Under the pieces are notes generated by a model that was not told where the DNA came from, did not search any database, and worked only from the letters and a program-made list of their open reading frames with translations. From NCBI GenBank assembly GCA_014871385.1, contig CM026433.1:8993433-9057432 (forward strand): 64,000 bases of DNA, written 5' to 3'. This DNA comes from Ceratodon purpureus. Lineage: Eukaryota; Streptophyta; Bryopsida; Pseudoditrichales; Ditrichaceae. This document shows, piece by piece, positions 13,716-48,820 of the stretch; position 1 is the first letter of the stretch; each line of letters opens with the position of its first letter. Both the position numbers and the translations under genes were made by a program.

Positions 13716-13867
13716 TTAGGCCCTCTTTACACTAGAAACCAAAAGTCATGGAGAAAATCAGCCAAGGGCCATGGCTTATTCTTGAGAAGTTCAACTCCAA
13801 ACTTGGTGTTCTTTGGATACAGTGTAAAATGAGAAGGGGCCTACAAATAATGTGCTAAAAAATTTAA

Positions 13868-14721
13868 CCCCTAATTGACCAAAGTCCTAGAATGGGCGTT
13901 TTTGAAATTTGGGCAGGTTCCTAAATATTCAAATTTACTTGAAATTTTTTGAATTTTTTTTGTAGGGAAAGGTTTTTTCAAAAGGTTTATGGGGATATTT
14001 TTTTAATTTTTTTTGGATGAAGTGAGCAAAAGTTATGCTCCTCTGAGCATAAAATGCCCTTCCACGGGCAGGCTCTCAGCCACTGTGAATGCAGCAATGT
14101 TTGCCCGAAACTGCCCAAAACTGCCCAAAACTGCCCAAATCTGCCTAAAGACAAAACTTTGAAATTCCACCAAAAATTGAGATTCTAGTTTTTCCCAAAA
14201 ATAAAAATTTCTATATGTAGAAGAGCTGCCAGTAGAGCATGTTTCCACCGTTTGGATTTTCAATCCAAGAATGTTTCATATGCTATTTTTATTGTTTAAA
14301 AACGGCCTTTGTATGTGAATTTCAGCATACCCTCTTGTGAAAATTGATGATTTTCTCAAGGTCCAACACCTTGCATGGGTATGCCATTTTGTGGACATGT
14401 ACCTAACTCACCTAGGAACACGAATCTAAAGAAACGCCATCCAAATCTACTCAAAAAAATGGTTTTTTTGGACCCCAAAATACTGCTGTCGTCTTTTTGC
14501 AGGGTAAAAAAAACTTTTTTTTCAACTTTGAATGTTATAATCACTCAAATGGTAAGGAATGAGATTGTGAGATTTGATATGCTTATAGACATAGAAGTTA
14601 GATACAAGATCTTACGGTTGGAAATACCAAAATTGGTTTCAATTTTGCACTATCTAGCTTGCTTTCAAAAGGGACTATTTGGTGGCAGTTTTGAGCAAAA
14701 ACATCCTTGGTCAATTAGGGG
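13868..14721. mobile_element. TTAA-flanked non-autonomous DNA transposon, copy A
   Basis: Ends CCCCTAATTGACCAA and its inverted copy, with TTAA at 13864-13867 and 14722-14725. 854 bp, non-coding. It lies inside the PIF-type MITE at 13719-16141. Confidence 0.8.
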
Positions 14722-14737
14722 TTAATACCTTTTTTAA

Positions 14738-15824
14738 CCCCTAAAGCATTTGGCCATAAAATCCCAAATTCTGCAACAAATCTTCCATGTTTTAGTTCAA
14801 GGTAGAATTATGCAAACTTGAACGTATTTAGGAGAATCCAACCGTAGGATCTAGTACCTAACCTTGTACATGTATGTGTACACAAAATTTCAGACTTTAA
14901 CTCTTCACCGTTTGGAAGATCATAAGGTTTGAACTTGAGTGAAAAGTTTTTTTTGGTCCTGCCCGGCAGGGACAGCCATACTTTGGAAAGTAAAACAATC
15001 CATTTTGAAGATCGCATGGGTGGAGGCTCTTCAGTTTTGGATTCTAAAGTGAGTTGGGAGTATGCTCAAAAAAATTGAAGACAATACAACACACATAAGC
15101 ATTGGAAAACCACATTTCGAGTGACAAGAGTCAAATGAAATGCATATACACTGGCTCTTTTTCCACACTACAAATGCCTAAGAAGATCATCTAATTTTTG
15201 GGAATCCGAACGGTGTATACATGCATTTGTATGGAAAAGAAATTGTAGAGGAAAGAAATCCAAAAAATAAATAAATCTAAAATAGATATGAATTTTACAG
15301 CATATACTGTGGTTTGGGAGGAGAAAATGGTGAAGGAAAAATGGGTGATGAAGGTGACCCAATCACTGTTGATCTGTCTTGACAGTTCTTATAATACTTG
15401 AAACTTTGATTGAGTATATCTCAAGATCCGTACGGTCAAAGTTTACAAAACTTGGCTTGTAGACTGATTGGACGGCTTTGAACAAGATCCTACGGTTGGT
15501 TTTTTCAAAATCAAGTTTTAAAAAAAATTGTGAAACAATTTCAGAAAGGATTATTTGGAAGTCACTATAGACTTTCACAGATTTGATACACCACTCCCAT
15601 CGACCGCAAACCTGCCCGAGTTGCCCTGAATTGAATTTTGGTCTTTAAACACGAATTATTTCTTAACTACGGGCCCGATGGAAATAAAATTTGGTCTTGC
15701 TAGAAAGATATGACAATTTCCCATGTTGTGCCAAAGTTACAGCCACATCCGAAAAATTTTGACTCATAGGGAGCCTGACCGGACCCTAAATCATACCAAA
15801 ACTGTTGAGTTGGTGCTTTAGGGG
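14738..15824. mobile_element. TTAA-flanked non-autonomous DNA transposon, copy B
   Basis: Ends CCCCTAAAGCA and its inverted copy, with TTAA at 14734-14737 and 15825-15828. 1087 bp, non-coding. Interior and right end (GAGCCTGACCGGACCCTAAA ... GTTGAGTTGGTGCTTTAGGG) resemble copy E, making B and E one subfamily. It starts 8 bp after the right TTAA of copy A. Confidence 0.8.
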
Positions 15825-15908
15825 TTAATATAGGATTATGAAAAATTATTAAATAAATGAAAATGATTAGCTGTGAGAATTTTGGCCAAATGGCCTCTCG
15901 GATTTTAA

Positions 15909-15938
15909 GTCAGGCCGACCTCTTGAGGTTGGCCTGAC
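15909..15938. repeat. Internal hairpin of the PIF-type MITE
   Basis: A 30 nt near-perfect inverted repeat: arm GTCAGGCCGACCTC pairs with the following arm with one G-T position. It occupies the position held by a different but also self-complementary 30 nt sequence in the MITE at 19852. Confidence 0.75.
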
Positions 15939-16144
15939 TAAAAATCTGGGGGTTATAAAAAATGTGCCTTTTTGTTGCTACCAATGACAAAAGTATTGTC
16001 TATATCATTTTCTCCTCGTTTAGTTTCTTCGGCTGAAATTTTGGAGGTAAAGTGACATTTCTTGGTCTTCTCAATTTCTAGGCATGTCATTGGCTGAAAA
16101 ATCTTTTCTCACAGCCTTTCTCCTCTAGTGTAAAGGAGGCCTTA

Positions 16145-19100
16145 GCTTTTGGGTATATACCAAAGAAAATATGGGTTCGAGCTCAATTGTTTTTTGTAGA
16201 TGAAAAATCTAGTTTGAATCCTACATGGCAAATGTAGATTGTGATTTCCTTGGGCTCAAGCCCATTCAACATAGAAACCTCACAAAGCTTTTTATTTCTT
16301 AAGTACATGTCAAAAAATTACTCTTAGAATCATTTGGATCCAGAAAAACTAAAAAATTTAGAAAGTGAAATTTACAGTCAAAGATTATTGCAATTAAGAA
16401 ATACGCTCAATTATTTTTGGACTTTAATGATTTTATTATTATCATTTTTCTTCCATGTATTATGACTATTCATTTTGGATTGACATAAAAATTTGGTCCA
16501 CAACTCACTTGCAACTCATAAGATAATGGGTGACAATAGAGGAAAGGACTCATCTCTTTTATTTTTTGTTTCATTAAATGTAACTATGATATACGACAAG
16601 CAAAAAATGGAGGTATGTGCATGTTTTATGAAATCAAAACAATCAAGTCATGTCATAACTATGTATTTTGGAAATTTTTCAACTTCGTTTTTTGTTGCAA
16701 TGAAATGTTGCACATACAATCAAAGAATTAAAGATTTGATGATGAATTAAGCTTTGTTTAAAGAATGTTTCAAACCATTGTTGAAGATTATAATGAAAGG
16801 TAGTTCGAACAGACACTTAATTCACGTTGGTCTCCTCTGAAGACCAAAGTTTTTCTCTCTTATAATGAAAGAATTGATGTCCTTCATTTTTACAAAATTT
16901 ATCTATAATGATGAGACAAGAAAGGTGACTCTGGCTAGGTGCTAAGGATTTAATGAAGTCTAATTTTCATTCTATTTCTAACTTGATTCTTTTTGATTGA
17001 ATGATTTGTATTTAATACAAGATAAAGGAATTTTACCATGGTCTTTATTATATTTTCTATGATTTTAGTTTTTTTCAATATAATCATCAATCACATATTA
17101 TTTACAGCACAGTAATTAAATCGATATTTTGGATTTTCAAAAATTCATTTATTTCCAATTTTCTATAAACTTGATAAAAATGTTTTTTGATATTTGTTTT
17201 TCGAATAGTGACCAATGAATTTGAAAAGAACATTATCTGTAGATAGCACATCGATTTCTTAATATAGAAAATTATAAAATTCACATTATACATTGATCAT
17301 AGTAGCCAAATTAATCATCCATAACAGAAGCCTACTTCCATGGTCATAGGAATAAGCATTTAGAAATTAACCAACTTGTGGAAAAATTGCAACAATATAT
17401 TCAATATCATTTAGAAGTTCCTCTTTATTGAAATTGAATTATTTAGTATATTTACACTAGCATAGTTTTGACGTCATTAAATGTTAAATGGTTAATAAAC
17501 AATGCGTGAATAGGCATGTATATCATGACCAACTACAGATAGTAGAAGATTTTTATTTTCTTGTGAATATTTTGACAAAGAAAATAATTTTGGCTCTAAA
17601 AGAAATTTTGGCTTAATAATCAATTAAAGTGCAAAAAGTGGTTATAGGCAGTTCAAAAAATAATATCTCAAACTTGGGCAGTTTTAACTTACACTTTGTA
17701 GTGTGCTCTTCAAACCATCACATTCCACTACCAACACTAGAATTCTATTTTAATTTTTTTGGACAAATAGAGTCAAGAATTTCCAAAAAATTTAGGCAGA
17801 CCTGTATTTAAATATTTTCTACCTAAGGTGCTAGTAACTTCCGGTCCCGACACAAAATTGGAGCACAATATAAAGCTCGTTGAAAGCAAACCAATACTTT
17901 CCAAATTTTGTTTTTGGAAGATTTGAGCCATACTTGGTAATTGAAACCTCCATAAACCACTCAATTCTGAAATTTATTTTATAAAATTCATTGCAACTAA
18001 TTTCAAATACATATTAAATTGCCATTATAAAGATGATAAAAGGCTTGTTTCCTTTACAAGAAACTCTAATCTCACAAAAAATTCACTGTATTGGATACTT
18101 TGGATAACTTTAGTACAAAACCAAAGTGTTTGACACTTAGCATCCTTGCAATTGTGATTGCAAAATCCTTAGGATGCTCTACCTTTCAGTAAAGCGTGCA
18201 AACGGGCCTAGTTAGAATCATATGAATACGGTACTCCAGGTTCACGTACAATACGATCATGCTGTACTGTACCACATATATACTTATTACTCACTTGGTA
18301 AATTTTCATATACGGTATTGTACTATTGTAGCTGTTAGAGTATTCTGCGGTAAAGCTGCTGCCATGTTTGTCTGTTTGCAACAGTAAGTAATGGAATGAA
18401 GATAATAACAGTGACAAACTTTTAACTCAACAGAGTTCCATGATTTGGACGAACTTGGTCTAAGCTAGCCTGGGATTTGCAAAGCAAAAGCAGGGAATCT
18501 TTGGGCACCAAGTCATTCAGTTGGTGTTCTCCACAAGTGACCAACATGCAATATAAAAGTGGCCTCGGGGTTTCAACTCTTTCTAAGATAGGAAAAGTGG
18601 CCGTTGATAACTAAACGCCAGGTTTGCGTCACCACTGCCACCGTCTAAGTTACCTGATGGACCTCACCACAGTGCCACACAATCCCTTTGCAATGGATGT
18701 GGAGTCCAATAAATGTCAGTGTGAACTCCACATCCATTATACATAATTATTATCATGTAAAATTGTGGTAAAAATTTCAATGCAAAAAAAGGATAAAGTG
18801 AACTTTTTTTGTTTTTTTTTTTTTTTTGTTTTGTTTTTTTTTGTTTTTCATATTTTCTTTAAAAATAATTAAGTGGTGTTCTTGGATCCGAAAATAGATG
18901 TATGAAGGAACTATGATTTGGGATTGAGATATGAATGAATTCATGTTTTGTAAGTAGTAATGCTACACATTTATAAAATTTTGAAGGGAATTTTGTGTTT
19001 ATTTCAATCATCCATCTAAATTTGTTTTAGAGTAGAGGCACCAATGTATGGTTATAATTTATGTTGTTGTATTATTTAGAAACCAGGTGTGTATTTGACA

Positions 19101-19848
19101 AAATTTTAGCGAGATCTTATGAGAATTGAAGGTTTGTGAGAGCACATCCTCCAATCCACTCCCCAATTTCCTGTCCCTATTGCATTTTTTCTCTCTCCAA
19201 GCCTCAGCCAACTCTAAGCACTCTCCCAATTCTTGTCTCTTTTAGCCGAGGAAAAAAATGCCCCTCCTCCAGTACATTATAGACTGGATCCTCAAAACAT
19301 GATGATAGGCTTGTCACTTGTGTCTTGACTCTTTGCAACCTCACAATTGGTGCTTAAGCATCCTAGGACACAAATCACAACCATCATAAAATCACCAAAA
19401 GCATGTCAATCAAATGATGCCCCAAGGGTACCTCTTATTGAAAAACTTAACTGCTTTTGCGACATACCGATACTGTATGAAGGAAATACTTAAAAAAAGG
19501 AAAAAATAAGTTCTGACAGTCATAATTTTTGGAGTGAGCCGTGGCCTGCATTTATATCTACTTGAGAAGATGCTCACCTGCAATGCCTGTGCACATGCAG
19601 GCGTGCAGGAACCTGGGGTGCAGCATATGCCGTCTCTCTTGAGTCTTCATCATGCTCGGTGACTGAACTCACAGAGCATCCATTGCACCGGTGCCACTCA
19701 AAGGGGGCTTCATCTGTTAATGATTGATGGCAAACACAGTAGTATAGTACCATATCTGCAAAATAGAATAAGACTGTACTAAGGTTCAACACCTCCCTGC
19801 TAGTCATAGATAACCTATCTCCACTGGGTTTCTGTAAACACGAGAACC
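16145..19848. other. Intergenic AT-rich DNA, no gene recognised
   Basis: About 3.7 kb without a coding pattern. T-rich low-complexity sequence is at 18809-18850. No terminal repeats with target duplications were found. Confidence 0.5.
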
Positions 19849-19851
19849 TAA

Positions 19852-20302
19852 GGGGCGGTTTACACTATGGACCATGAAGATATCCCAAGAGAATTATAAA
19901 GATTTCATGGTCACGGCTCTTGGTCTAGAGCCGTGACCATGAAAAAAAAAAAATCATTTTTTAAATGTCTTGGTCACTTGTCATGGTGTAAAGCGGATTT
20001 GGACCGGGACGACTTTGGGCTGAATTTTTCAGATTTTGGCCAATCACTGATTTTGTGCCCAACGGTCCCCTTGTTTTCCGTCGAGTCGACCTCTTTACCT
20101 CGACTCGACTAAAAACCCGTTGGACCATGAAACATTATCCACTAGGTAGAAAATAGCACATTTTGGTAACCTCAAACTTTGTGGTCAATCTCCTTTTTTC
20201 AAGGTAGTGTAAAGCGAAGTCGGACAGGGACAACTTCCTTGGCCAATCACAGATTTTAGAGGGCCGTGGTCAATGTCCACGGTCCATAGTGTAAACCGCC
20301 CC
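19852..20302. mobile_element. PIF/Tourist-type MITE, 451 bp
   Basis: The termini GGGGCGGTTTACACTATGG and its inverted copy are flanked by TAA at 19849-19851 and 20303-20305. Further GTGTAAAGCG motifs lie inside each end. The GGSSNNNTTTACACYA terminal pattern is shared with the elements at 13719 and 45859. Confidence 0.9.
20080..20109. repeat. Internal hairpin of the PIF-type MITE
   Basis: Perfect 10 bp arms GTCGAGTCGA/TCGACTCGAC around a 10 nt loop, 30 nt in total and followed by TAAAAACCCG. The equivalent hairpin at 15909-15938 is also 30 nt and is followed by TAAAAATCTG. Confidence 0.75.
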
Positions 20303-20305
20303 TAA

Positions 20306-30953: not shown

Positions 30954-32889
30954 GGTTGGCCAGTTGACCCTGAGATGGAAGTTTTCAACTGAACTATAGG
31001 TCGCACACGCAGTTGAGTTTAATCTATCCAGTTGAAATTTTTCAACCATAGTTTGAAAGTTTTCCAACTGGAGGCTGCACACGGTAACGAGTTGAAAATA
31101 CAGTGGATGAGAATTCATGATCCATCAATGTACATAATTCAAACTTTTTGTTCATAAAAATTATTTCATTGCAATTATTAGTTAATATATGAACCTATGC
31201 TACTTTACTTTTGAATTTGTACTTGATTGAATACATTATTCAAAATCCATATTCAAATAAATAAGATTTCATTGTTATGATTTGGCATGTATATCACTAT
31301 TTCAGAACACAATGATATGTTTAAAAACAAATTGGATTGATTTTTAAAAATTATAATTTTCTGATGCAAATTAAGTTATTTTCTTATGAATTGGATTATT
31401 TTGAAGAATTGGATTATTATTTCATAGACTATATTATCAAAAAAATAATTGAATTATTATTTACATGAATTGAATTATTGAGACAAAGGTTATACTCCCT
31501 TTGTCCCATAATGACTTTCTCGTAGGTTCTCTCAAATCTACTTGTGGAGGTAGATTTTAGAGAACCTACGAGAAAGTCATTATGGGACAGAGGGAGTATT
31601 ATTTTATATAAATTAGATGATTTTGAACCAAATTCTGTTATTTTGGCATATTCTAAATTATTGACATAAATTAGAATATTTTTACATAGCTTTAATTATT
31701 ATGACATAAATTTGATTACTTTCGAATAAATTAGAATGTTTTGACACAAATGAGATTGTTTTAACACAAATTTGATTATTACAATATAAACTGCAATATT
31801 GAGATTAGGTTGAATCACTAAGACATAAATTGGACTATTGGAACATATACTAGTTCATGTTAGATTGGATTGGAATATTTGGATTTTATTGAGGAAAAAA
31901 TAATATTTTTTTCGAATTCGAAAACAAAGGAGAACACAATCTTTGAACACAATCTTTGAACATTTGCATATCATTTTAAATGATAAGCTTGTATAATCCT
32001 TGAAACGCTTATTAAAAGTAAAAAATTATTAATAATTTTTAGATTTCTCTTTCATTGTATTAGCAATTGTATCTAGTGATTGCGCTAAATGTGAATCCAA
32101 AAACTCCTTCGTTTATTGTCAAAATCTTCATCCTTGTTAACGTATTTTTATTTATTTTTATTCAAATATTAGGAAAAATTTCAATCAATTATAATGACTT
32201 CATTAAAAATCTACATTAATTTTTAAAAATTAAAAATAATAGGTCATTAAATTATATATATTTATTCTAAAAAAGACATATTCCAAAAAGATGGATAGTT
32301 CCAAGTTCATGCAAATTAAGTGTTAGTCTATTGAATTGTACAAAATTCAGTGTTAATCTACTAAATTATACAACATTGGCGTTTGCTTGGACATACTGTA
32401 TGATGTATGATCCATACTATATACTGAAAATATTGTAGAATGGGCATTTGCCTAGAGAGTGGGTGGCACAAAAATTATGTGATGACTTTGCTCTATTTAC
32501 TATGAATTTTTCTAAACCAAGTTGTCACTGCACCTGCTCTGCAATGACATCACATTTGTTGACAAATAACTAGACATAAAATTTTTAATTATGGATTATG
32601 AAAAATAGGGGGAGCATTTTCCGTGAGCACATGAGAAGAATCATCCAATTTTCCGTAGGCATGAGCAAAAAACTTCACTCAATGGTGGGGGGGTACCATT
32701 GAATTTCGTAGTGTATTTTTCAACCATGGTGTGGGGGACCACAGCAGAGAATTTTCTCCCTTTGAGGGACCACACTTGAGTATTTTTCTCCCACTTCAAC
32801 TGGACCTCCATGTGCGGCCTCCGGTTGAAACCAATTTTAACCGGGAAGCACCTCAAATCTCAACTGGATGGCCCTGCGCGGCCCCCCTA
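30954..32889. mobile_element. Candidate MITE-like element with CAACTGG subterminal repeats
   Basis: Inverted CTTAGG/CCTAAG edges, GGCC-containing termini, and inverted CAGTTGA/TCAACTG motifs clustered at 30960-31100 and 32770-32870. The interior is very AT-rich, with many ATTGGATTATT-like units, and contains a Stowaway MITE. The target duplication is unclear. Confidence 0.35.
31495..31596. mobile_element. Stowaway MITE, 102 bp
   Basis: Starts CTCCCTTTGTCCCATAATG and ends with its inverted copy, flanked by TA at 31493-31494 and 31597-31598. The arms are nearly fully complementary. This is the classic Stowaway (Tc1/mariner-related) terminus. Confidence 0.95.
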
Positions 32890-33099
32890 AGTTTTGTTGT
32901 ACTTGTTTTTGATAGCTCAATACTTTTGCTTTTCAAAATTACTTATAGTTGATCACGAAACATTATTAGAAAGAATAACTATGTACTAAAAAGTGGATGT
33001 GCTGATTTTTAAATGATTTCCAAATTTGGCCAATCTGAAAAATTAGCCCTTTGCCTAAAAAATATTATTCAAAAATATTAAGATAGCATTTCATGCCTA

Positions 33100-33310: not shown

Positions 33311-33412
33311 TCTTGGTCTGTAATGTTAACTACCCTTGAGTCACGGTTGAAAGCTGGCAGAATATGGAGGAGAGAAGTACAGTCCCTCAAAGTCAAATTC
33401 TTACATTCCCAA

Positions 33413-33719: not shown

Positions 33720-33885
33720 AAATTCTTACATCCCAACAAATAAACTTCATCAACATATCTGGTGTAGCTATTCTGTAATGGTTAAGTCTTTGTCATGCAT
33801 GCATACAGGTGACAAAATCCAGCGGGGAATCTGGGAAACATGGAAAACACTTGAGCAGTGGGCATATAAGGTAGAATGTCCTTAA

Positions 33886-34803
33886 CCCCTAAAAATCCAG
33901 CCGTTTTTGGAAGCTCCAAGTTCCAAAACTGTCATTTTTGACCCCTTTGTGGGAATGACGGTTTGGACCAGTTTTTTTCCTTTTGTTTAGAAATTTAACC
34001 GTAAGATCTTGTACTTTACCCTCTTCAAAAGTACTGATGAAATTTTCAACCGTTGGATGTTTACCATTTGTGAGATTGTAATGTTCAAAGTTGCAGCAAA
34101 AGTTTTTTTTGGTATAAACCGAACGACATAGGGTAAATGGTGAAAATGGGGACTTGATGTTCATTATCCCAAACATTTTGCTCATATTTTTTTCCATGTA
34201 GGTAATCAAGTTGGGTACCTCCATGAAAAAATTTGGAGACTTATTCCTTTTTTTGGACCTTCATAAAAATTATTTTCTACAAGCGGGTCTAAAAACGTTG
34301 ATATCGTAAAACATGTATGACGTTACGTATACTTGGTTTTAGAAAAATCTAAACGGTGGTTAGGTGCCTTTATACATTTTTTATTTTTGGGTGAAATTAT
34401 TTTTGAAAATTTTCAAAATCTCAAATTTTGACAAATTTTGAAAGAAATAATTCAAAATTTTGAAGCTTGTCTTTGTAATTTTTGGAGGCTGCCCTTGTAA
34501 AATTGGTTTATTTTTTGACTTTGGTCTCTTTGGAATCTGAGTGGTGGTTTGGTTATGAAAATATTTCAAGAAAAAAAAATTAAAAAATCCCTAATTTTAA
34601 GCTGCCCGTTTTGGACTTGAAACCTAAATTTTCTAGATGAAGGTCTTAAAATTGGAATTTGGCTTTGAAAATTTTACCACATACACCATGCAGTATGAGG
34701 AGCATCTAGTAAAAATCTTAGGCAAAAATATGAATTTTAACCCCTTCATCTTGGCTGCCCAAAACAGCAAAAACCCATTTCGGCTTTCCTGGATTTTTAG
34801 GGG
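33886..34803 (-). mobile_element. TTAA-flanked non-autonomous DNA transposon, copy C
   Basis: Ends CCCCTAAAAATCCAG and its inverted copy, with TTAA at 33882-33885 and 34804-34807. 918 bp. It is in inverted orientation to copy D: read from its right end it matches the left part of D over several hundred bases (GGGTTTTTGCT, TTTTTGCCTAAGATTTTTA, TGGTAAAATTTTCAAAG). Confidence 0.85.
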
Positions 34804-35070
34804 TTAAACCACCCACTTAAGGATTTAGGTATAATTGAGGCGCTGCTATGTATTTTTTGTAGTTTTTCATCAAAGGCAGAACAAGAATGATGCCAAAGGC
34901 ACTTTTTTCCAAAATTAAATAGCAAAAAACCAATTTATTATGAACTTTATAAGTGAAAAGTATCCCCGACCTAAAACGGATCAGATGCTGAAATGTACAA
35001 ACAAGGTACATCTGATTTTTCAAAATCTAGAAATTAGTCATGATCGATTTTATGGCAGTGGATGGTTTAA

Positions 35071-36004
35071 CCCCTAAAGATCCAAGAAACCCGATTTGGG
35101 TTTTTGCTATTTCGGGCAGCCTGGTTGAAGAGGTTAAAAGTAATATTTTTGCCTAAGATTTTTATTGGATGCTTACTTTACCGTAAGGTGTACGTGGTAA
35201 AATTTTCAAAGTCAAATTCCAATTTTAGAACCTTCATCTAGAAATTTTAGGTTTCAAGTCGAAATAGGGCAGTTTAAAATTAGGTTTTTTTTCAATTTTT
35301 TTTTTTAAAACTATGTTCATAACCAAATCATTACTCAAAATCCGAAGTGACCCTAGCCAAAAATTTTACCAATTTTACAAGGGCAGCCTCCAAAAATTCT
35401 ATGAACAAGCTTTAAAGTTTTTTGTAATTTTACATTTTTTCCTTTCAAAAATTTTCAAAATTTGAGATTTAAGAATTTTTCAATTTTTTTTTCTTCCAAA
35501 ATTTACAAACTCATAGATGTAACTTTTTACCCGTCACTTTTTTTCCGAACCAAAAACATTTAATGTTATTTAAGGATTACCATATTGAAGATTTTGTACC
35601 TACTTTTAGAAAATAATTTGCATGAAGGCCAAAAAATCAAAAGAAGTCTTCAAAATTTTGCATGGAGGTGCCCAACTTAGTTACCTATATGGAAAAAATA
35701 TGAGCAAATTGTTTGGGGTAACAATCATCAAGTCTCTCTTGGCACCATTTAGACTATGCCTTTCGAAGAAAACCAAAAAAAAAAAAAAAAACAGTAAACT
35801 TTGGACGCTATAATCTCACAAACGGTAAAGATCCAACAGTTGAAGTTTGACATGGTGTTAGTGCAAATAGTTAGGTTGAAGATCTTACGGTTGGAAATAC
35901 TAGGAAAGGAAATTTTATTGGAAACATACATCAATTTCAATAAGGTGGTCAAAATCTGCAGTTACGGGTCTTGGAGGTCCCAAAACACTCTAGAGCTTTA
36001 GGGG
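35071..36004 (+). mobile_element. TTAA-flanked non-autonomous DNA transposon, copy D
   Basis: Ends CCCCTAAAGATCC and, reversed, CCCCTAAAGCTCTAG, with TTAA at 35067-35070 and 36005-36008. 934 bp. Close relative of copy C in opposite orientation; C and D together form a large inverted repeat with a spacer of about 260 bp. Confidence 0.85.
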
Positions 36005-36156
36005 TTAAGGACATTCTACCTTACGTGGCTTGTTAAAATGGGATATCTAGGAACAGTCAACTTAGTAAAATGGATATTCAGGGTATCCTTTTGTGCATGC
36101 TACAACAACAAACATGCAGTGCACTACTTTTGTTGCAGCAATTTTCTAGATTACTT

Positions 36157-36576: not shown

Positions 36577-36708
36577 TACTGCGGTGTAGTCTATGAATTT
36601 AGGAAGTAACTATTCCTTCCTGAAATCAACACAGATTTTAAAGCACTAAAATGGCCTCCTCTTTCCAATGGTCTTCACATATAAATAAGAATTTCAAGAT
36701 AATGTTAA

Positions 36709-37541
36709 CCCTTAAAGTAGAAAGGCCTCAAAACTGCTAAAAACCCTCAAAACTAGACTTTTTCAATGTAAGGTGTAAGTTTTTAAGTTTTGACGTATTT
36801 TGGAGAAAATAACAGTAAGATCTAGTACCTTACTTGTACATGTACATGTACCTCAAATCTTAGATTCAAACTCCTTACCGTTTGTGAGATCATATTGTTC
36901 TAAGCTGGACAAAAAGCTTTTTTTCTTAGTTGCAAAATGGGTTTCAAGTGTTTTGTGAGCCAAAAACACCAATTTCAAAAGCAAATTCGATGTGAGGCTC
37001 TTCAAATTCTTGTTCCTAGGTGGATTAGGAATATATCCATGCACTTGTTTCCCTCATACGACCTGTAAAACCTAAAGAAATGCTTGATTTTTCACATGGA
37101 GGTATACTGAAATTCAAATACAAAGGCGGGTCTATGATAGTAAAAAGGCATATGGAAAAATATTGGATTGAAAATCCAAGCGGTGGATCATGCCTTCAAA
37201 TTTTATTTACATATTAAAAAAATAAAATTTGAAAAAAAGTATAATCTTAATTTATGGTGAATTTTTGAAGTTCCTTGTGATCTAATTAATTTTGGGCAGG
37301 TTTTGAGCATATACTGGAGTTTTGGGTAGATTTCAGTATGCCCTAATAGTGTTTTCAAACTTTGGCTAAGAATATCTCCTAATGTATGAGGAATTTTGAA
37401 GCATGAATGGTCTTGTTAAAAAAAATATGATAATTGTCTATACCATGCCAAAATTACAGCTTCATCATCTAAAAATTGACTTATGGGGAACCTGACCAAA
37501 ATCTAAATCATACGATTTTTGTTGAGTTCATGCTTTAAGGG
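36709..37541. mobile_element. TTAA-flanked non-autonomous DNA transposon, copy E
   Basis: Ends CCCTTAAAG and its inverted copy, with TTAA at 36705-36708 and 37542-37545. 833 bp. It shares the interior motifs AAGATCTAGTACCTTAC and ACCGTTTGTGAGATCATA with the other copies, and its right end with copy B. Confidence 0.8.
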
Positions 37542-37545
37542 TTAA

Positions 37546-38480
37546 CTTCCATATCAATTCATACAAAGTTGATGTGAGAATAGACAATTTTGACTATTCC
37601 ACCAATTTTTTGAATATGATGATTGTAGAGTGGGGATGAGTGTAACACAAGAGATGCCACTAGACATAACTTTAGCAATGTTGGTGTTAAGGTAGAACCT
37701 AAAGGAATTGTCTGTTCTTAAAGATCGTAACCAATTAATGGATTAGAATTAACTTAATTTATTTTTTTAAAATTATTTGAGGTATTCAATTTTACTATAG
37801 AACTTTATTTTTAGCCAAAAACAACCATTCAACCTAGTGTGCAAGCTACAGTTGAAAACTAAGAAGTTTAGAATATTTTGAAAAACTCATGTCTTATTTA
37901 TACAATGTTTGAATAACATGTTCTAACTCCTAAAGTTTGTTGACTATGTTCCACCAAGAAACGCTCCAAAAGTGTCATTTTTAATGTAAAAAGCATGAAT
38001 GACTAAAAAATCATTATTATCCTATATTTTGAAGCCCATTTTGAGGAAGAAAAAAAAAGAAGACATTAATAGATTTCTTGCCTTGCCTAAAATTAATTTC
38101 TGTTCTTTGCATTAATGAATTTTGTGGAAAACCTTTTTATCTGCATGGACATTTAAGAATTATCCAATTCTAACCATAAGATCATCATGTAGATTGTTCT
38201 TTAAAACAATTTAAAAACATGTTGACACACTCCAATTTATAGCTTTTTGCATTATGGATTTTGAGGGTTTTGGTGCAATGTGACAAAGACCACTAAGGTA
38301 GCTAATTGTATAAGACAAATCACACAGAGAAAACAAGTGTAGCATGTGTTGAAAACCATATTTTTATTAAGTTGAATACAAAAGAATCCTAATTCATATT
38401 TCTTTCCTAGAAATTTCATTATTTCATAAATTCCCAATTCAAACAATCAAAGTAAAGATTGATGTTCATCCTTTAAATTG

Positions 38481-38528
<48 letters not shown>

Positions 38529-39421
38529 CTTAAATATAAACTTTTTAAAACTTTTATGAAGGAAAGAAGAAGCTTTTTTGGTACATCGCCCAAATGTGTG
38601 AACAAATTTTGATCTTTTGTAGAATGAACATTTTGTACTGAAAGAAGTTTTTTTTTTTTTTTCGGAAATCTCGAAGATGACGACATTAAGTATTTAAAGG
38701 AAAAATATTCAAAGCTAACAGATATATTAAGAATGGCCCACCAATAATTCCACCAAACAAAAAATTCCACTTTAGGTACCATAAATATTCTTTTAAATGT
38801 CTAATTATAAAAAATTAATATCCCTCAAAGTCCTTATTACAGCAAATATTCACAAAAAAGTGTCATTTAAAAAAAAATCTAAATTGACATGACATATACC
38901 TGCCCAAACTTTCAAAAAGCCCAGAAGTGGACATTGTCTTTTGGGGGTTGAAATTTGTAGTAAGGTCAAGCCACTTATTACCAACCAGGAACCCATCGAC
39001 AGCATGTAGGATACATAGAAATAGTCACGGGTTGGACGCATTTCCGATCATGTCTACTTTTTGTGGATGCTTCTAAATAGGCTTAGGTGGTTCACTCTTA
39101 GTAGTTCTTATAGAGTTGTGTTTAAAAAAATCTGACTTTCTTTGTTCACAATTATATGCACCGGAGTTCGGAACTGAGCGGTTATGTAGCACACTATAGG
39201 TTGGTTGTGGGTTACAAGCAACTTTTCACTTCAAACAATTATAACTATTTGAACAGTGGAAATTAAATCGCGGAAATTTTTGCATTCAACAAGAACCTTA
39301 TGTTTGCACTCATAAAAAATCCTAAAAAAATTATATACCTTAATTTCATATGCTAAAATCCTTAAATGATCGCTTATGGGTGGCTCGACCTTAGTCCCTT
39401 TGAAAATATCTTCAAATGTTT
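37546..39421. other. Intergenic AT-rich DNA
   Basis: No gene was recognised. A pure run of 46 A lies at 38481-38526. Near 39365-39395 a CGCTTATGGGTGGCTCGACC stretch resembles the right terminus of the AGGTA-type MITEs, with no convincing left partner. Confidence 0.45.
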
Positions 39422-39425
39422 TTAA

Positions 39426-39526
39426 CCCCTAAAGTCTAAATCTACCGGATCATTGTTCAACGATTTCAGAAAAAAATCATTTCAGGTAGAAGAACAGTGA
39501 TCGGGTCGAGTCCTCGACTTTAGGGT
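39426..39526. mobile_element. TTAA element, miniature copy G (about 100 bp)
   Basis: Left end TTAA then CCCCTAAAGTC; right end GACTTTAGGGT followed by CTAA, a degraded TTAA. The inner arms (GATCATTGTTC/GAACAGTGATC) are also complementary, so the element is little more than a hairpin. Confidence 0.55.
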
Positions 39527-39530
39527 CTAA

Positions 39531-40978: not shown

Positions 40979-42799
40979 TCATTCAGTGAGTGCAGTGAGT
41001 TTTTGCAGCTTGGTGACCTCCGACACACTCGCAACACAATCCTGGAGGAAATCGCGAGCGCTATCCAAGTCGGCAAGTCGATCCTCGAATGGTTGAGCCA
41101 GCCTCTTGGCGACGATAGCTGCAAAATGGGGCCGCAAAGTGTCGTCATCCAGGGCAGCCTGGATGGCTTCTAGCCCTTCTTCCAAGTGATCGCCACCTAC
41201 AACCAGCACCAGATGTGCGTCCGGAGTGGACAGAATCTTCTTTGCGGCGCTCGCATGGCTGTCGGTTTCAGGTTCCGTCACACTCACCGTCGTCGTCCCC
41301 ACGAGCCCCACCACCCCATCTTCCCCTTCCCAATGAACTTCCACCGCGATCTCCGCGTCACCGCTCACAGGAAACAGCGCACCTTCCCCGCCGCGCATGA
41401 GCGTCAGGGAGCTCGTCACGCTCTCGCCTTGCTGGAGCTCCACCATCGGGTGATCATCGACCAGCATGAGCGGGGAGAAGCTCCGACTCACCCCATCAGC
41501 GTCTGTCACCGTGCCGCGCACGAACCCTGCTTTAAGGCTCAGGCTCGCGGGGACCGTGATCGGCTCCTCGCCCTCGTTCGTGAGCGTGACGTCCACTCGA
41601 ACTGGCGCGCCGAGCGGGACCTCCGACAGATTCGCCTCCACCTCGAGAGTCAATCCCTCGGGGGCTGTGATCTGCGAGTCACCCACATCGCTAGCTTCAC
41701 CGAACGGGACGCCACCGGGACGGACGAACACGTCCGGGTAATGGCGCAATCGATGGAGATCGTCGTCCGCGAACGCCCACTTGATATTATTCGGAAACTC
41801 GACCTCGCCGCTGTTCCCCGCCTTGGCGATGACATCGCTCGTGTTCATGAACCCCAAGTCAATAGTGTTGTGGTACAACCCCAGCGCATGACCAAGCTCG
41901 TGAATCGCCGTCCGGAAGTAGGCCTCTGTGGCGTCGGCGAATCGCATCCCGCTCGCGAGACCCCAGCCGGAATCGACCTTCCAGTCCGTGGCAATACCCA
42001 CGCCCTCGCGGGGCACCTTATCAGAATCTGTAGCACCCGCATCGTACATGATTCCACGCGGGGTCGACTTGATCCCCTTCACAACCAAAATGTGGTACCG
42101 CCAAACTGTATCGAGATCGTTCAAGTCTCGCCACTTGAGCATGGCGGCGTGCATCTCGGCATCAGCCCATGAAGTTCTCCCCCCTGGTTGCGTTACATCG
42201 ACATTACTCTTGGGCCAGAGCGTCACCTCCCAGCCTACCGCGTCGAAGACCGTCGCCCAATCTAAACCATGGCCGCTCTGGAGGGGACGAGTTCCCCCGC
42301 GAACAGTATCAATCTCCACTGTAGCTTTCCGGAACATCGACGACACCCACACCATCTTGAGCGAACCCACAGCAGCTTCGCCTCCTGTCACATCGCCTTG
42401 AAGAGTATCCGGACTCACCGCCGACAGAACTACTTCGAAAGCGCCGTGCAAGCTCCAGGATCGTGAGCTTAAGCTCAACTGCCACATTTCGAATCCCAGC
42501 GTGGTCTCTGAGCCTTCGACGATCTTGGTGACAGTGAGATAGTACACGTAATCGCTTCGGCTGAAAATGGGGATGCCGTCGGCTGGGTTCGGCTCATTCG
42601 CAGAGCGGTTGTAGAGGTCACCGCTCACAATCAACCCATTCGGATTCGCTTCGACCCGGATAGTGCCGTCGTAGGTCACGCCAGAGTGCTCTTGGTACTC
42701 AACAATCCAACATCCGGCTCTTAGAGCTCCAGCACCGTCTCTACTCGCAGTGGGCAATGGCTCTGGCAGTGGCACCCTCTTCCTCTCGTCCGAAGCCAT
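40979..42799 (-). CDS. Intronless metzincin-type zinc metalloprotease, bacterial-like
   Basis: A single open frame of 606 residues from ATG at 42799. The zinc site HELGHALGLYH (residues 300-310) fits HExxHxxGxxH, with catalytic E301, followed by GFMNTS with a Met-turn at M318, so it belongs to the metzincins. A Trp/Tyr-rich beta domain comes first (about 29-160, CWIVEYQEHSGVTYDGTIRV). After the protease are PDVFVRPGGVPFG (355-367), a beta-sandwich-like region (about 380-505) and a helical end. No signal peptide or prodomain cysteine switch is visible, unlike plant matrix metalloproteinases. The coding sequence is GC-rich against AT-rich flanks and has no introns in a region where host genes have many. 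Substrate unknown. Horizontal transfer from a bacterium (or fungus) is an inference. TTTTTTGCAG directly before the ATG could end a leader intron. Confidence 0.8.
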   Translation of the reverse strand: MASDERKRVPLPEPLPTASRDGAGALRAGCWIVEYQEHSGVTYDGTIRVEANPNGLIVSGDLYNRSANEPNPADGIPIFSRSDYVYYLTVTKIVEGSETTLGFEMWQLSLSSRSWSLHGAFEVVLSAVSPDTLQGDVTGGEAAVGSLKMVWVSSMFRKATVEIDTVRGGTRPLQSGHGLDWATVFDAVGWEVTLWPKSNVDVTQPGGRTSWADAEMHAAMLKWRDLNDLDTVWRYHILVVKGIKSTPRGIMYDAGATDSDKVPREGVGIATDWKVDSGWGLASGMRFADATEAYFRTAIHELGHALGLYHNTIDLGFMNTSDVIAKAGNSGEVEFPNNIKWAFADDDLHRLRHYPDVFVRPGGVPFGEASDVGDSQITAPEGLTLEVEANLSEVPLGAPVRVDVTLTNEGEEPITVPASLSLKAGFVRGTVTDADGVSRSFSPLMLVDDHPMVELQQGESVTSSLTLMRGGEGALFPVSGDAEIAVEVHWEGEDGVVGLVGTTTVSVTEPETDSHASAAKKILSTPDAHLVLVVGGDHLEEGLEAIQAALDDDTLRPHFAAIVAKRLAQPFEDRLADLDSARDFLQDCVASVSEVTKLQKLTALTE

Positions 42800-42992
42800 C
42801 TGCAAAAAAACACCAATCGAAATATCAATGATTCAAACTTATATCAATGAAAGCTCACAGATAAGAGCCAGTCCAGTACTAGATCTTCACCTTGTTGGCT
42901 GGGGTGTGCTTTCACCAAGTTTCTATCACTAGCTTGATACAGAGTGGATAGTGACCGACAGCTCGTTGTGAAAGTGCGGTGCACTGAAGCGG

Positions 42993-43000
42993 CTTATATG
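42993..43000 (-). promoter_or_regulatory. TATA-like box of the metalloprotease gene
   Basis: On the minus strand CATATAAG lies about 195 bp upstream of the ATG, a reasonable position if the leader is about 165 nt. Its presence suggests the gene has a eukaryotic promoter. Confidence 0.4.
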
Positions 43001-43435
43001 CTCTTGATGATCGGAGAAGACCGTTGTCGGTAAATGAGCGGACTTTTTTTCTTTTTTTTTTCCTTCAAGCAAAAAATGACCGGACTTTTGATCACGCTAC
43101 TTGGAATGGATATTCCTTCGGCAGATGGCTGAATTTTTTTTTTGTTTCTTTTATCGGAGCAAATGGAACGTGTATTCCTCCGTTGATCGGTTAGGAATCC
43201 AGTCATCCAGAGGTGAATAATAGCAATGTCGTGTCAGGACTCACGATGGCTGGTCAGTTGGGTCGTCATTGACGTGCTATCAAGGCCCCACGTGCTTCAT
43301 TTGAGTGCTATTGACATTCATCTTCCGGTACTGTCGGTAATTGAATGGAATCTAGTACAGCTTTTTTACAGAAGAAAGCTCATAAACTACTAATTTTTAA
43401 GAAGTATGATTCCAATTCTACAGGATCGCAATGTA

Positions 43436-44762
43436 CAGTCGGGTACAACTTGCTTACGAATTTTTCTTTGGAGGAAGTTTTTATATCAAAAGTTTGAAAA
43501 TTCATTAGAGTTATATGTAAAGTCAAGAAAAGTTTCAAGAAGATACCCCTCTTTTGATTTATTGTAATACTATTTGTTCACTCTAAATAGTTAGTAGATA
43601 TGAAAGAGCTTGGTGGTCTTACAATTATAATATTTATTATGTATAGAAGAGATTGGTGGTCTCTAAACACAAGTTAGAAGTTTTTTAGCCACCTTTTAGA
43701 AGCAAAAAGTAGAGGTCATGTTGTACCAAGAATCCTAGCCGCATTTTTCCTCCGTGAATTGATTGTAGAAATTTAACGCTATTAAGGGCTGATTTTAATT
43801 ATTTAAATTGGAGAAGAGAGGGTATCTTTTTCAAAACAATGGTTACCTTTGCAAATAACTCTATTGTGAACTCAAAAATTATCGGATTTGAAAATCGTAA
43901 AGTGTTTTGGAATCACATCGGAGTGTACTATTATATTGTGATATTATTCATCATATTATTCATCAATGCCGTTTTGTGATATTATTCATCATATTATTCA
44001 TCAATACCTTTTTGTGATATTATTCATCATATTACAATTAGTTTATACACCACCTAATATTAACTACTCCTACCTTTTGTTTCAACATTTCAATTACAAA
44101 TTGAAAACAAGCTTCCAAAGTTGTTTTTGGGATACTTTAGTGCATACTTGTGATATCATTGATATACTTCTTATCAGGTTTTTGGCTTTGAGGAATTTCA
44201 TGAAAAGTTTTAATGAACTCTAAATTTTTCCCAAAGCCTTTCACACTACTACAAATGTCCTCTAAGGACTTGAAAAATGGTTGAAGGCTATTAGAATAAT
44301 AACTCTCATGTCTATCTTAAATTATTCTAGTATTCTTGCCAAGTTTGAAAGAAGATTTACTTTCCACCTTGAGTTTTGATTCAGAAATTCATAAAAAACC
44401 ACTCCAAACCAAGGAATTTAAAAAGAAAATATTATTTTTATCATTCAAGTATACACTTAGGTATCCCAAGAACAACTTCAGAAGTTCATTTTCAATTTGC
44501 ATTTGAAATGTACATTGTAATTGAAACAAAAGGTAGGAGTATAAAGTAATGGTAATATGATGGTGTATAAAGTAATTGTAATATGATGAATAACATCACA
44601 AAAAGGTACTGATATTTTATCATAGTATTATAGCACACTCCGATTTGATTCCAAAATACTTTACGATTTTCAAATCCGATCATTTTTTAGTTCACAATGA
44701 ATTTTCAAACTTTTCACAAAACTTCATCCAAAAAAAATTCGTAAGCATGTTGTACCCGACTG
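43436..44762. mobile_element. Long-arm foldback element with CAGTCGGGTACAAC termini
   Basis: The left end CAGTCGGGTACAACTTGCTT and its inverted copy at the right are flanked by TA (43434-43435 and 44763-44764). Inner arms also pair: 43862-43935 (ATCGGATTTGAAAATCGTAA ... TCGGAGTGT) with 44630-44700. The interior is AT-rich and non-coding. TA target and CAGT start suggest a Tc1/mariner or pogo-type origin. Confidence 0.75.
43936..44038. repeat. Tandem repeat, 38-39 bp unit, about 2.7 copies
   Basis: Unit TTGTGATATTATTCATCATA plus TTATTCATCAAT and a short tail. It lies at the inner edge of the left arm of the foldback element, and a partial reverse copy is in the right arm (about 44580-44610). 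Confidence 0.75.
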
Positions 44763-44764
44763 TA

Positions 44765-45399
44765 CAAGTCTCGCCCTCCCATGTCGATATGACTCATATG
44801 AGTGCTCCACATTATCTAATTGGATCTGGCTGTGTCACATGATACTGTAGAAGGAGGACGCCTGTTTTTGTTTTTTTCGTTTCTTTCTTACTTGAAAAAA
44901 AAGAATCAGTTGTTTGAGGAATATACGGTATCTTGGAGCAAAGCAATTGCTTGCTGGCTAGGGGTGGAGAACTGTACATATACAGTACAATTTGTTATAG
45001 TAAGGGCTCAATAATGGCTCAATTTTCAACACCGAAAATATATAGAGTACTTAATAGTGCAAGCAATTTTTGTTTATGGGAAAAGTCAGTGGAAAGACAT
45101 AGCAAGTGGAATCATCATTTTTGGACTCTTCTACAATTAGTTATGAATTTTTGAAGTTGGATTTATAGGTGTTACTAAAATGGTGCTCTAAAATGGCACC
45201 TTGTAATGTTTGATCTGACTACATGGCACTGTTGGATTGGGAAGCTATTATATACCTCTAAGTGAAGATTATTACAGCTCCATTATTGGACATGTTTCAT
45301 TTTAGAAGACTCTCTCATAGGAAAATACCAAAAAAATTGGTTACTCATGTGACCATAAGCGTTCACGTTAAACTGAGGTTGTAGGTAAATCACTTCTCA
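44765..45399. other. Spacer, no gene recognised
   Basis: AT-rich DNA. CAGTACAATTTGTTATAG at about 44989 could be a decayed left partner of the isolated terminus at 47340-47368. Confidence 0.35.
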
Positions 45400-45401
45400 T
45401 A

Positions 45402-45578
45402 CTCCCTCCGTCTTACTAAAAGAGTCTGGTTTGGTAAAATAATTTGTCTCAAAATGAGAGAGTGGTTTCTAAATTTGGCCAAATTATTTCTAAATTTGGC
45501 CAACTTGTTTTTTAATTTAGAATTGCCTTAATTTTTCTATTATTAGCAAAGCATGCTCTTTTAGTGAGACAGAGGGAA
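45402..45578. mobile_element. Stowaway MITE, 177 bp
   Basis: Starts CTCCCTCCGTCTTACTAAAA and ends with an inverted copy (reversed: TTCCCTCTGTCTCACTAAAA), flanked by TA at 45400-45401 and 45579-45580. Confidence 0.9.
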
Positions 45579-45858
45579 TAATTTTTTTCTCTTGGCCATA
45601 AAGATCATCACGTATTTGAGAGATGTGCTCAGAAGCAATCATGCAATTATTAATTGGATATCTTCATTTAAAGAATTGTATGGATAGAATATTTCCAGAT
45701 AGGAAAACCAACGCAAAATATTTGTAAAGAGGGGAAGAAAAAGCGTCCCATTGTCACTTCAAAAGCAGGAGGAATTAGCTTGGCATCTCATTGGCCGCAC
45801 AAAAACACCTCACATTGGCATTGGTAGAAAACATAACATCTTAGCATGTAGAAACTAA

Positions 45859-46842
45859 GGGCCGATTTACACCTAGGGGCCGGGCCAATTCGGCCCGTTT
45901 GAGAGCTGAAATCCTCACTCGTGATTGGCCGAAAGGTAAAAATGAGCCCCATCCCCTTACACCTAGAGGTCGCGCCAATCTGGTGGCAGAAAAATTTTAA
46001 TCAAAAAATGCAAGTTCTGACATGGCCCGAGCTTGGTGAATTGGGTGCACCGAGAATGGAAGGCCAATTCTTGGTCTCGGGGCCAATGTCAGATTTTAAT
46101 TAAAATAGTATTTTACAATTAAAAATCCTTTAACTTCAACCAATCAGTGATCACAGACTTTTCCAAAGCCACGGGGAATTGAGCCCACCACCTTGCGGCT
46201 ATGAGGAAAGATCCCATGACGATCTCATTCACCATGTCCTTCCTTCAATTCCCCACCGGGTTAAAACAAAAAAAGTAACCAACAAGAGAAAGTTCCCGCC
46301 TTTGCATTCACCATGTCCTTCCATGCTCCTTCATGTCCACCGCCTGTAATTCATTGTTTTTTGTACCCATATCATTGCTGGAATTTTAATTTCATGGACC
46401 AATTGGAGGCCAAATGAAGCCCAAATCCTTTTTTTTATTATGTTTTTGGTCTATGTATTAGATGTGCAAGTGTATATACGTCATTGAGACTATATTCTTG
46501 TTTGATTGCGGTGATTCTTAGACTTTTAATCAAATAAAAACATTATTTCCATAACAATTTGCATGACCATGAAGAACACAATAACCATTAAAATCTTATG
46601 TTTTCATTCATCCATCTTGTGGAAATGGCAATGAAAAGAAAGAGAGAAGGGCTGAAATTTTCTAGATTTATTGGATCGGCCCGGCTTCTTGGCCCGAAGG
46701 CCGTTACATATGGGAAAATCGGCCCCCGTTCTAATCTTATTATAATGAGGACTTGAGGTCGGCCCCAACCCAAAAATAGGCTGAAATTTCAAGCAATTGG
46801 CTCCAAGGAAACTTGGCCCGGCCTCTAGATGTAAATCGGCCC
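45859..46842. mobile_element. PIF/Tourist-type MITE, 984 bp
   Basis: The termini GGGCCGATTTACACCTAGG and, reversed, GGGCCGATTTACATCTAGAG continue into GGCCGGGCC and are flanked by TAA at 45856-45858 and 46843-46845. Same terminal pattern as the MITEs at 13719 and 19852, but with an unrelated interior. Non-coding. Confidence 0.88.
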
Positions 46843-47339
46843 TAATATGAAGCTTCATCTTCTTGCACTTGAAGCAAAAGTGGGAATAAAATTGGGAAAT
46901 TTCACTCCCCTTTCATTTTCAATCCAGCAATGGGAAGTATTCATTCCCCTCTAAGCAAAAAAATTGTGACTGTTCTCTTATGTGGAAATATTTTAAATAT
47001 CTCTTTGTGGTCAAATCTTTCGAAGTTGAAAATTTTCACACATATTATCAACATAGAGGTAATCTCGTGCTAAAATTTTCATGGCCAAATTCTGTTTTTC
47101 CAATCTTTGGGAGGGTGTCAAAGTTGGTAGTATTGATTTTTTTTTTTACTTAGCTACACATGTTGTTAGATTTTGAATATCTTTTTTGTGTAGATCTTCT
47201 GGCCTTGAAATTTGGTACACGTGTTATTAACTTAAAGATGATGTTGTGGTAAAATTTCATGGTAAAATTCCAGTTTTTGAGATCTTAAGAGGGCGGAATA
47301 GTTGGGAGCAATGAAGCTTTTTTTCCCCATGTGAATGCA

Positions 47340-47368
47340 AAAATTCGTAAGCATGTTGTACCCGACTG
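47340..47368. mobile_element. Isolated terminus of the foldback family
   Basis: AAATTCGTAAGCATGTTGTA then CCCGACTG and TA is nearly identical to the right end of the element at 43436-44762. A left end was not found with confidence. If it is near 44989, the element would enclose the Stowaway and the PIF-type MITE between. Confidence 0.55.
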
Positions 47369-47692
47369 TACATTACGAATTATGTAGTGGGAGCATGGAG
47401 CATTGCTATGAGGAGTAATAGAGTAGCGCATTAGCGCTGCAACAATACGATCTGGCGCTGCGAAACGCTCTCATTACCTAGTTCATGATGTACCGGTCGA
47501 GAGAATTTTCATCCACACAGCAGTAGATTACAATCAAATTTCATCCACACACTCATCGATTACGAACATCCCTATATTATGGACTGTAATGTGTATGCCC
47601 AAAACCAATCAGATTTTGCCAAGTCAGCACATTTTTGAGACTGGTTAATTACAGTACATTAATAATGAAATATAGTGTTGCAATACATTTAA

Positions 47693-48816
47693 CCCCTAAA
47701 GGCCCAATTTGGGTCGCAACACTTTCGGGCAAGCTATTTTATAGTTTCAGAATTCAATAATTTTCTGAATTTTTACTCCATGTAGCTTTCAACACTAGTT
47801 TTTCAATGGCAAGCAATTGGAGTTACGATGCAAAAGTTATGAATTTTAGAAGAATCTGCTTTAATTTTGGGCAGCCAATAACCAATCAAAATCTCCCATT
47901 TTTTGTCCAAGTTGCCCATCATTCACAAGGGCAAAAAGTGACAAGACAAAATTTCAAAGGGAGGGCATTTGCAAAATGATAGGCCCAATGTTATTTCATC
48001 CATACACATTCATGATGGTTTTCATCCAATATAATTTTTTCATCTAATTAATCATTTCCGTCTAAAGAGGTTGCTGATTTTTTTCATCCAAATTACAATC
48101 ATCATCTAAAGCTTATTTTTCATCCAAATTCCATTTTACATCTACATAAACTATTTCATTCAAACTCCAATTTTCATCTGCATAAATTATTTCATCCAAT
48201 CTTCATTTTTCATCCAATCTTGATTTTTCATCCAAAATTAATAAATTTCATCCAGTATCTATGATGTGGCAAGGGGTCCCTCCAAAGGACTCCCTATACC
48301 AAAACTGCCCTTTGAAATAAAAGGAAAATATACAATTTACACTTCAAAAAATTATGGAAATTTGAAATCTACTCCAATTGCATTGAATTTTTTTGTGGTT
48401 GTTTTCTTCATTGACTTCAACATATCTACCATTCAAATTTTAAATTGGACATTTTTAGACTACCCCTTAAGTAGTTTTAATTTTGGAGAATGTAAGGCAA
48501 TTTCAGCACACCTTTTTTCACAAAACCAAAGATTTTATGACGCTCAAACTTTGTGAGCTTATACTTAACTTTGATATCTAAAGGAATTGATGATATTCCA
48601 TAGATAAAATATGCAATGACTTCAAACGTTATATTCTCGAAATATGTAGGGTGGATTGTCTTCTAAATTGGTATACACCTTTTTGGATATGGTAGGTATA
48701 AGATCCTACTGTCGAATATTCAATATTAAGTCTAAATTTAGAAACAAATAGGGTTCTATCAATAAGGGTATGTTTTTGGCAGTTTTGGCTGCAAAAACAC
48801 AAAGGGCCTTAAGGGG
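47693..48816. mobile_element. TTAA-flanked non-autonomous DNA transposon, copy F
   Basis: Ends CCCCTAAAGGCCC and, reversed, CCCCTTAAGGCCC, with TTAA at 47689-47692 and 48817-48820. 1124 bp, non-coding. Contains a cluster of TTTCATCCA repeats (about 48000-48260). Confidence 0.8.
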
Positions 48817-48820
48817 TTAA

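Follow-up and report, generated by a model that had tools for sequence, protein, structure and literature searches.

Short TTAA-flanked elements in the moss Ceratodon purpureus are very probably non-autonomous members of the piggyBac superfamily

The piggyBac superfamily of transposons is best known from animals. Two of its members, piggyBac of Trichoplusia ni (structure 6x67) and piggyBat (structure 9c0f), together with the CMITEs of corals, which are piggyBac-type miniature inverted-repeat transposable elements (MITEs), are the described systems with which we compare seven short elements, E1 to E7, from the moss Ceratodon purpureus. The elements lie in a stretch of 64,000 nucleotides (assembly GCA_014871385.1, contig CM026433.1, positions 8,993,433 to 9,057,432, forward strand), hereafter called the window. 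Like piggyBac and piggyBat, the moss system has a TTAA target, short inverted ends that start with CCC, and DDE_Tnp_1_7 with an aligned DDD; unlike theirs, its host is a land plant. We put the probability that the window elements are non-autonomous piggyBac superfamily members at about 0.94, because their CCC ends abut TTAA and elements with the same ends carry a transposase matching profile PF13843.

In the extracts of the cited papers on which this comparison draws, piggyBac hallmarks are CC[C/T]T ends, TTAA and inverted ends of 12-19 bp (PMC2872659). Coral CMITEs share with the moss elements TTAA, CCC-start ends, copies lying close together, and inverted ends that differ among families around a more conserved interior, whereas theirs are of about 100 bp, in tandem arrays and in a coral host, and the full-size moss elements measure 833-1,124 bp (PMC2872659); this likeness is drawn from described features. 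Bee piggyBacs of 2.23-3.52 kb encode about 580 residues (PMC10140906), unlike the transposase-bearing moss elements of 5.3-5.9 kb with 1,012-1,050 residues. In plants, piggyBac has been identified (PMC10140906) and is called occasional, for example in red algae, with limited study (2025, PMC12732532). A 2023 review includes PiggyBac among angiosperm MITE superfamilies (PMC10004981), and a repeat table for the fern Ceratopteris gives 1,230 PiggyBac copies (PMC6890710). Our literature search, which was thin on subscription papers, found nothing on piggyBac transposons in mosses, and the extract of a moss genome paper matching the word (PMC10619864) held 'piggybacking' only. A preliminary description of the window, made from its sequence, had called a plant family of this kind little described; this fits the literature, with the angiosperm and fern entries as exceptions. 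The moss family is new within a superfamily that is already known, and piggyBac is little described in its host group.

The elements of the window, with a possible eighth member and a repeat that houses two of them, are as follows.

13864..14725, minus strand: E1, non-autonomous, TTAA on both sides; 15-base perfect inverted ends CCCCTAATTGACCAA
14734..15828, plus strand: E2, non-autonomous, TTAA on both sides; one of its ends opens with the 18 bases CCCCTAAAGCATTTGGCC
33882..34807, plus strand: E3, non-autonomous, TTAA on both sides; within the left arm of the host repeat
35067..36008, minus strand: E4, non-autonomous, TTAA on both sides; inserted as the mirror image of E3, in the right arm of the repeat that houses both
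36705..37545, plus strand: E5, non-autonomous, TTAA on both sides; ends CCCTTAAA
39422..39530, plus strand: E6, miniature hairpin of 101 bases (39426-39526) with family ends; flanks TTAA and CTAA
47689..48820, minus strand: E7, non-autonomous, TTAA on both sides; minisatellite inside with an 18-base unit
37923..38951, plus strand: possible eighth member, decayed, with weak evidence; ends CTAACTCCTAAA and TTTGGGGGTTGA
33867..36023, unstranded: host repeat whose two TTAA sites are filled by E3 and E4; its inverted ends read TAAGGTAGAATGTCC-TTAA-ACC

The seven sets of coordinates and the CCCC(T)AAA-type termini given in the preliminary description were confirmed, as were the flanks: all six full-size elements (E1 to E5 and E7, 833-1,124 bp) lie between two copies of TTAA, and the miniature between TTAA and CTAA. 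Convergent end pairs that fit TTAACCC[CT]T[AT]A...T[AT]A[AG]GGGTTAA occur six times in the window and were absent from each of 300 dinucleotide shuffles. The absence of any further target duplication was borne out as well: flush outside TTAA, none of the seven has a direct duplication exceeding 1 base. We also compared the flanks and ends of 33 elements, a biased sample, since most were chosen for having exact TTAACCCCTAAA ends. Flush outside TTAA, their longest direct repeat was 0 bases in 19 elements and 1 base in 9, with longer cases of 2 bases in one, 3 in one, 4 in two and 5 in one; a longer target duplication is therefore not general. Counted from the first base, the perfect inverted ends of E1 to E7 span 15, 11, 15, 9, 9, 0 and 5 bases, respectively.

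The class of these elements follows from longer elements elsewhere in the genome. Three loci (L029, L030 and L031) were fetched as more widely spaced end pairs, and six (L032 to L037) as places matching PF13843.

L030: 5,337 bp, both ends TTAACCCCTAAA; 1,023-residue open frame, PF13843 at an expectation value (E) of 4.4e-80
L031: 5,871 bp, both ends TTAACCCCTAAA; 1,050-residue open frame, PF13843 at E 1.4e-80
L037: complete, 5,524 bp, both ends TTAACCCCTAAA; 1,012-residue frame, PF13843 at E 1.5e-78; chosen on the basis of its transposase rather than its ends
L029:75-7055: 6,981 bp, ends TTAACCCCTAAA; no frame reaches 130 residues
L032 and L033 (contigs C3 and C10): a second piggyBac lineage, each locus having a frame of 955 residues; L032 matches PF13843 at E 1.1e-74

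The preliminary description had left the class between piggyBac, Kolobok and Sola3, to be settled by an autonomous element with the same termini. The same-ended elements L030, L031 and L037 encode a PF13843 transposase, and this picks out piggyBac; together with the TTAA boundaries, such partner elements support the earlier view of a TTAA-target, non-autonomous plant family. The L031 protein matched the solved structures of piggyBac (6x67, E 7e-28) and piggyBat (9c0f, E 2.7e-27), and its three aspartates, in TIDE, MDNFF and GVDVADQ, align with theirs. Where the two align, L037 and L031 are 75% identical. Between L030 and L031, the ratio of nonsynonymous to synonymous substitution rates (dN/dS) of the catalytic domain was 0.053, with synonymous sites near saturation. 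Ahead of the catalytic match lie 464 residues in L030 and 512 in L031; the L030 frame opens just past an AG resembling a splice acceptor, which makes a further exon upstream likely. Across the genome, PF13843 matched at 116 loci, which are all those scored out of 999 first-look candidates, and by hand count 93 of the 116 have no stop inside the match; the same search gave no match in any of 14 control genomes. The loci L034, L035 and L036 (contigs C1, C5 and C6) all finish in TTTTTTAGGGGTTAA at TTAA, beyond which their DNA differs. L034 and L035 are 99% identical across 5.6 kb in two pieces, and L036 is 98.4-99.2% identical to them over 3.2 kb, 91-94% over another 1.3-1.5 kb and 81-86% in shorter pieces. 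L032 and L033 have 94% identity along 3.6 kb and 88% along 1.4 kb. Contig C6, at 110.5 Mb, has a size that fits a Ceratodon sex chromosome.

The genome-wide copies anticipated in the preliminary description were found: the C. purpureus genome (362 Mb) holds 9,407 exact TTAACCCCTAAA ends (4,663 + 4,744), compared with 128 (70 + 58) for the reversed pattern. At the start of contig C1, at least 27 convergent TTAACCCCTAAA pairs spaced 229-1,364 bp apart were counted by hand among the matches listed. The 18-base E2 end CCCCTAAAGCATTTGGCC, searched without TTAA, has 189 copies, and TTAA stands in front of 176 of them (93%). The family motifs had no match in public prokaryote contigs and none in viral contigs, and the 27 stretches found by pattern when the transposase alignment was compared with viral contigs were not confirmed.

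Most ends begin with CCCCTAAA and a few with CCCTTAAA; the constancy of the first seven bases after TTAA arises by construction, because the search pattern fixed or limited those positions. Ends starting with CCCCTAAA are also carried by L037 and L034 to L036, which were picked by transposase. In the 33 elements, 64 of 66 ends have A at base 8, and variation sets in at base 9. The two ends of one element are alike over bases 9-15, with 127 matches in 231 comparisons against a shuffled mean of 96.3 (1 in 10,000 shuffles as good), and the 27 elements outside the window gave 97 of 189 against 78.2 (90 in 10,000). The excess was weaker over bases 9-20 (163/396 against 140.9; 393 in 10,000), where it was not significant for elements outside the window (1,787 in 10,000), and bases 21-30 matched less often than in shuffled pairs (62/330 against 105.9). 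For the window elements, bases 9-18 gave 41 matches where permutation gave 26.9 on average (9 of 5,040 permutations did as well), bases 9-28 were weaker (437 of 5,040) and bases 19-30 showed no excess. The matched inner ends are thus real yet short. The end core CCCCTAAA includes CCCTAAA, a sequence that also forms a single unit of the common telomere repeat of plants. A strict CCCT start is found in few ends only and CCCCT is usual, as in one coral CMITE family (PMC2872659, extract).

Short and long elements also share DNA. When 28 non-autonomous elements were compared with L030, L031, L037, L034 and L029 at a threshold of E 1e-5, 16 had a stretch in common with a long element. E1 shares 184 bp at 81% identity with the end of the transposase-bearing L031, while E3 (228 bp, 70%) and E4 (211 bp, 68%) resemble the end of the transposase-bearing locus L034. 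In addition, E1 is 90-92% identical to a 2.0-kb element in L023, and E2 is 87-88% identical to a 2.0-kb element in L025.

Within the window, BLAST linked E1 to E5 mutually, and each was recovered by a profile built without it (E1, E2 and E5 removed singly, E3 and E4 together) at E values of 9.6e-63, 1.9e-36, 1.3e-20, 1.7e-12 and 1.8e-55 for E1 to E5, respectively; the reversed window, used as a control for these profiles, gave no match at E 1 or better. The interiors of E1 to E5 are homologous, and E7, which stood outside the profile, was matched by it at E 4.9e-13 and 5.7e-5. The preliminary description spoke of common interior motifs; the motif ACCGTTTGTGAGAT is exact in E4 and E5 only among the six aligned elements (E6 was not in the alignment) and is not recognisable in E7. 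E6 has its ends alone in common with the other elements, as BLAST found no match between its interior and theirs, and it folds as a hairpin with a z score of -4.2. The right end of the 37923-38951 candidate gave a weak profile match (E 3.8e-4), and searching this candidate alone with the same profile gave none.

E3 and E4, which are inverted relative to each other and 74% identical, form the closest pair in the window. Their flanks agree at 15 of 15 bases beyond the outer TTAA and at 9 of 10 beyond the inner one, and are dissimilar farther out. A relative of their host repeat at L027:1542-1959, with TAAGGTAGAATGACCTTAAACC inverted at both ends, is unoccupied and has TTAA in both arms. Together with the shared flanks, it places E3 and E4 at two mirror-image TTAA sites of such a repeat; each occupies one arm of a single host repeat, and neither is an insertion into unrelated DNA. 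Whether they arose by two insertions, or by a single one copied through inverted duplication or gene conversion, can be weighed on the same data. Their closeness, mirror-image arrangement and short common flanks speak for copying. However, the flanks are identical at 24 of 25 bases while the elements themselves have only 74% identity, and the unoccupied L027 repeat, with a TTAA in each arm, makes separate insertions possible and a plain segmental inverted duplication less likely. We consider copying a serious possibility, though the less probable origin of the pair.

Empty sites were searched with 32 elements against 28 sequences (292,831 bases). Ten alignments from six elements spanned a junction, of which seven, from five elements, could be read:

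L012: two paralogues, L011 (90%) and the window (79%); single TTAA in both
L014: against L016, a short match of 61 bp by BLAST; single TTAA
E3: against L027:1764-1961 (69%), the BLAST match covering about 16 bases on one of the sides; single TTAA
L015: against two paralogues; TAAA in both
L031: one alignment; CTAA

The check proposed in the preliminary description, whether insertions add exactly one TTAA, was thus borne out in four of the seven readable alignments (three of the five elements), the other three showing one-base variants (two TAAA and one CTAA).

Several observations weigh against the piggyBac assignment or against a single family. The TAAA and CTAA sites of L015 and L031 are among them; we read them as decayed sites, and on that reading these insertions too would have added a single TTAA. 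Three further alignments, all from L017, were gapped or shifted at the junction and unreadable. TTAA is missing in front of 13 of the 189 CCCCTAAAGCATTTGGCC ends, and 12 of the 28 short elements, including E2, E5, E6 and E7, have no similarity to the sampled long elements. Only one end each was seen for L034 to L036, as their left ends lie outside the fetched DNA. No CCCCTAAA ends occur inside the 6.4 kb fetched for L032 and L033, so the family end was found at four of the six loci chosen by transposase and not at the other two, and the 116 PF13843 loci are therefore not one family. The zinc-finger profile PF13842 reached 15.7 and 17.7 bits in L030 and L031, below its curated cut-off of 24, though the moss transposase resembles that of piggyBac in having cysteines in its C-terminal stretch. 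Finally, a TTAA duplication and a TA duplication inside TTAA leave an identical product, so sequence alone cannot separate them.

This last point favours ordinary plant Tourist or Stowaway MITEs, with TWA or TA duplications, that happen to sit in TTAA, as does the presence in the window of a PIF/Harbinger-type transposase frame at 6023-7447. Such a chance placement is nevertheless very improbable: the outer T and A are invariant in six of six full-size copies, TTAA precedes 176 of the 189 CCCCTAAAGCATTTGGCC ends, and the long-frame partner that was found is piggyBac, although no genome-wide search for a Harbinger or mariner partner was made. With a constant TTAA and a piggyBac partner, the TA and TWA classes were set aside. 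Equally hard to sustain are Kolobok elements, which share the TTAA target, have another transposase and are reported in some algae (PMC9587614, extract). In the same source, Kolobok ends have the form 5'-RR...YY-3', starting with purines unlike those of piggyBac, whereas here CCCC...GGGG adjoins TTAA. These CCCC ends also occur in L037 and L034 to L036, which were picked by transposase, and same-ended elements carry a piggyBac transposase; with termini that do not start with purines, Kolobok was set aside. Sola3 elements, which also target TTAA and have this as the sole point in their favour, are the least credible candidates, since the transposase of the same-ended elements is PF13843, although no search with a Sola profile was made.

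On the piggyBac reading, the full-length relatives (5.3-5.9 kb, with a frame of about 1,010-1,050 residues and a DDD active site) would make a transposase that recognises ends starting with CCCCTAAA, excises the element between its TTAA copies and reinserts it at a new TTAA, presumably by cut-and-paste. Every insertion would then add one TTAA plus the element. The moss piggyBac transposase may also mobilise the short elements in trans, possibly to this day. We observed TTAA boundaries, some empty sites with a single TTAA, termini and partly also subterminal DNA shared between short and transposase-bearing elements, transposase frames that are open, and closely similar copies that differ in their flanks.

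The window contains several other features. The PIF/Harbinger-type frame at 6023-7447 matches PF04827 (E 1.5e-87) and lies close to another frame (2980-4278) that has a NAM-associated domain, so that 2980-7447 is possibly an autonomous Harbinger element. At 53591-57761, minus strand, is a piece of a CACTA-type tnp2 transposase with DUF4218, DUF4216 being below cut-off. Paired 50-base arms at 31492-31599, 96% complementary and starting with ATACTCCCTTTGTCCC, look like what we take to be a Stowaway MITE. An intact 617-residue frame at 40979-42832, minus strand, has a weak M10 protease match below the Pfam cut-off. Among the best 120 of its 575 matches, the named relatives are bacterial (about 50%, Pseudomonas) and fungal (about 49%), and two matches are closer, at 97% and 82%; the frame is a candidate for a gene acquired by the moss lineage from bacteria or fungi. 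The hand-spliced filament-like plant protein of the window is 95% identical to C. purpureus M758_12G106800, its exons reaching 94.7-98.7% save for a ragged 47-residue piece at 83%. An Rfam scan of the window gave no match at gathering thresholds.

Tentatively, Ceratodon may have a native, still mobile piggyBac system made of several co-existing lineages with transposases of about 1,000 residues, each of which would read its own inner end bases (positions 9-15). Related non-autonomous interiors might then persist by gaining new matched end pairs, and a large part of the short repeats of the moss could stem from this system. We hold this broader picture to be possible rather than probable. With matching ends in the thousands, numerous open transposase frames and some closely similar copies on several contigs, this land plant widens the known hosts of piggyBac and makes the evolution of piggyBac in plants testable. 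The moth piggyBac has already been used in rice to remove a marker without a footprint (PMC10905368, extract), which makes a native plant piggyBac of practical interest.

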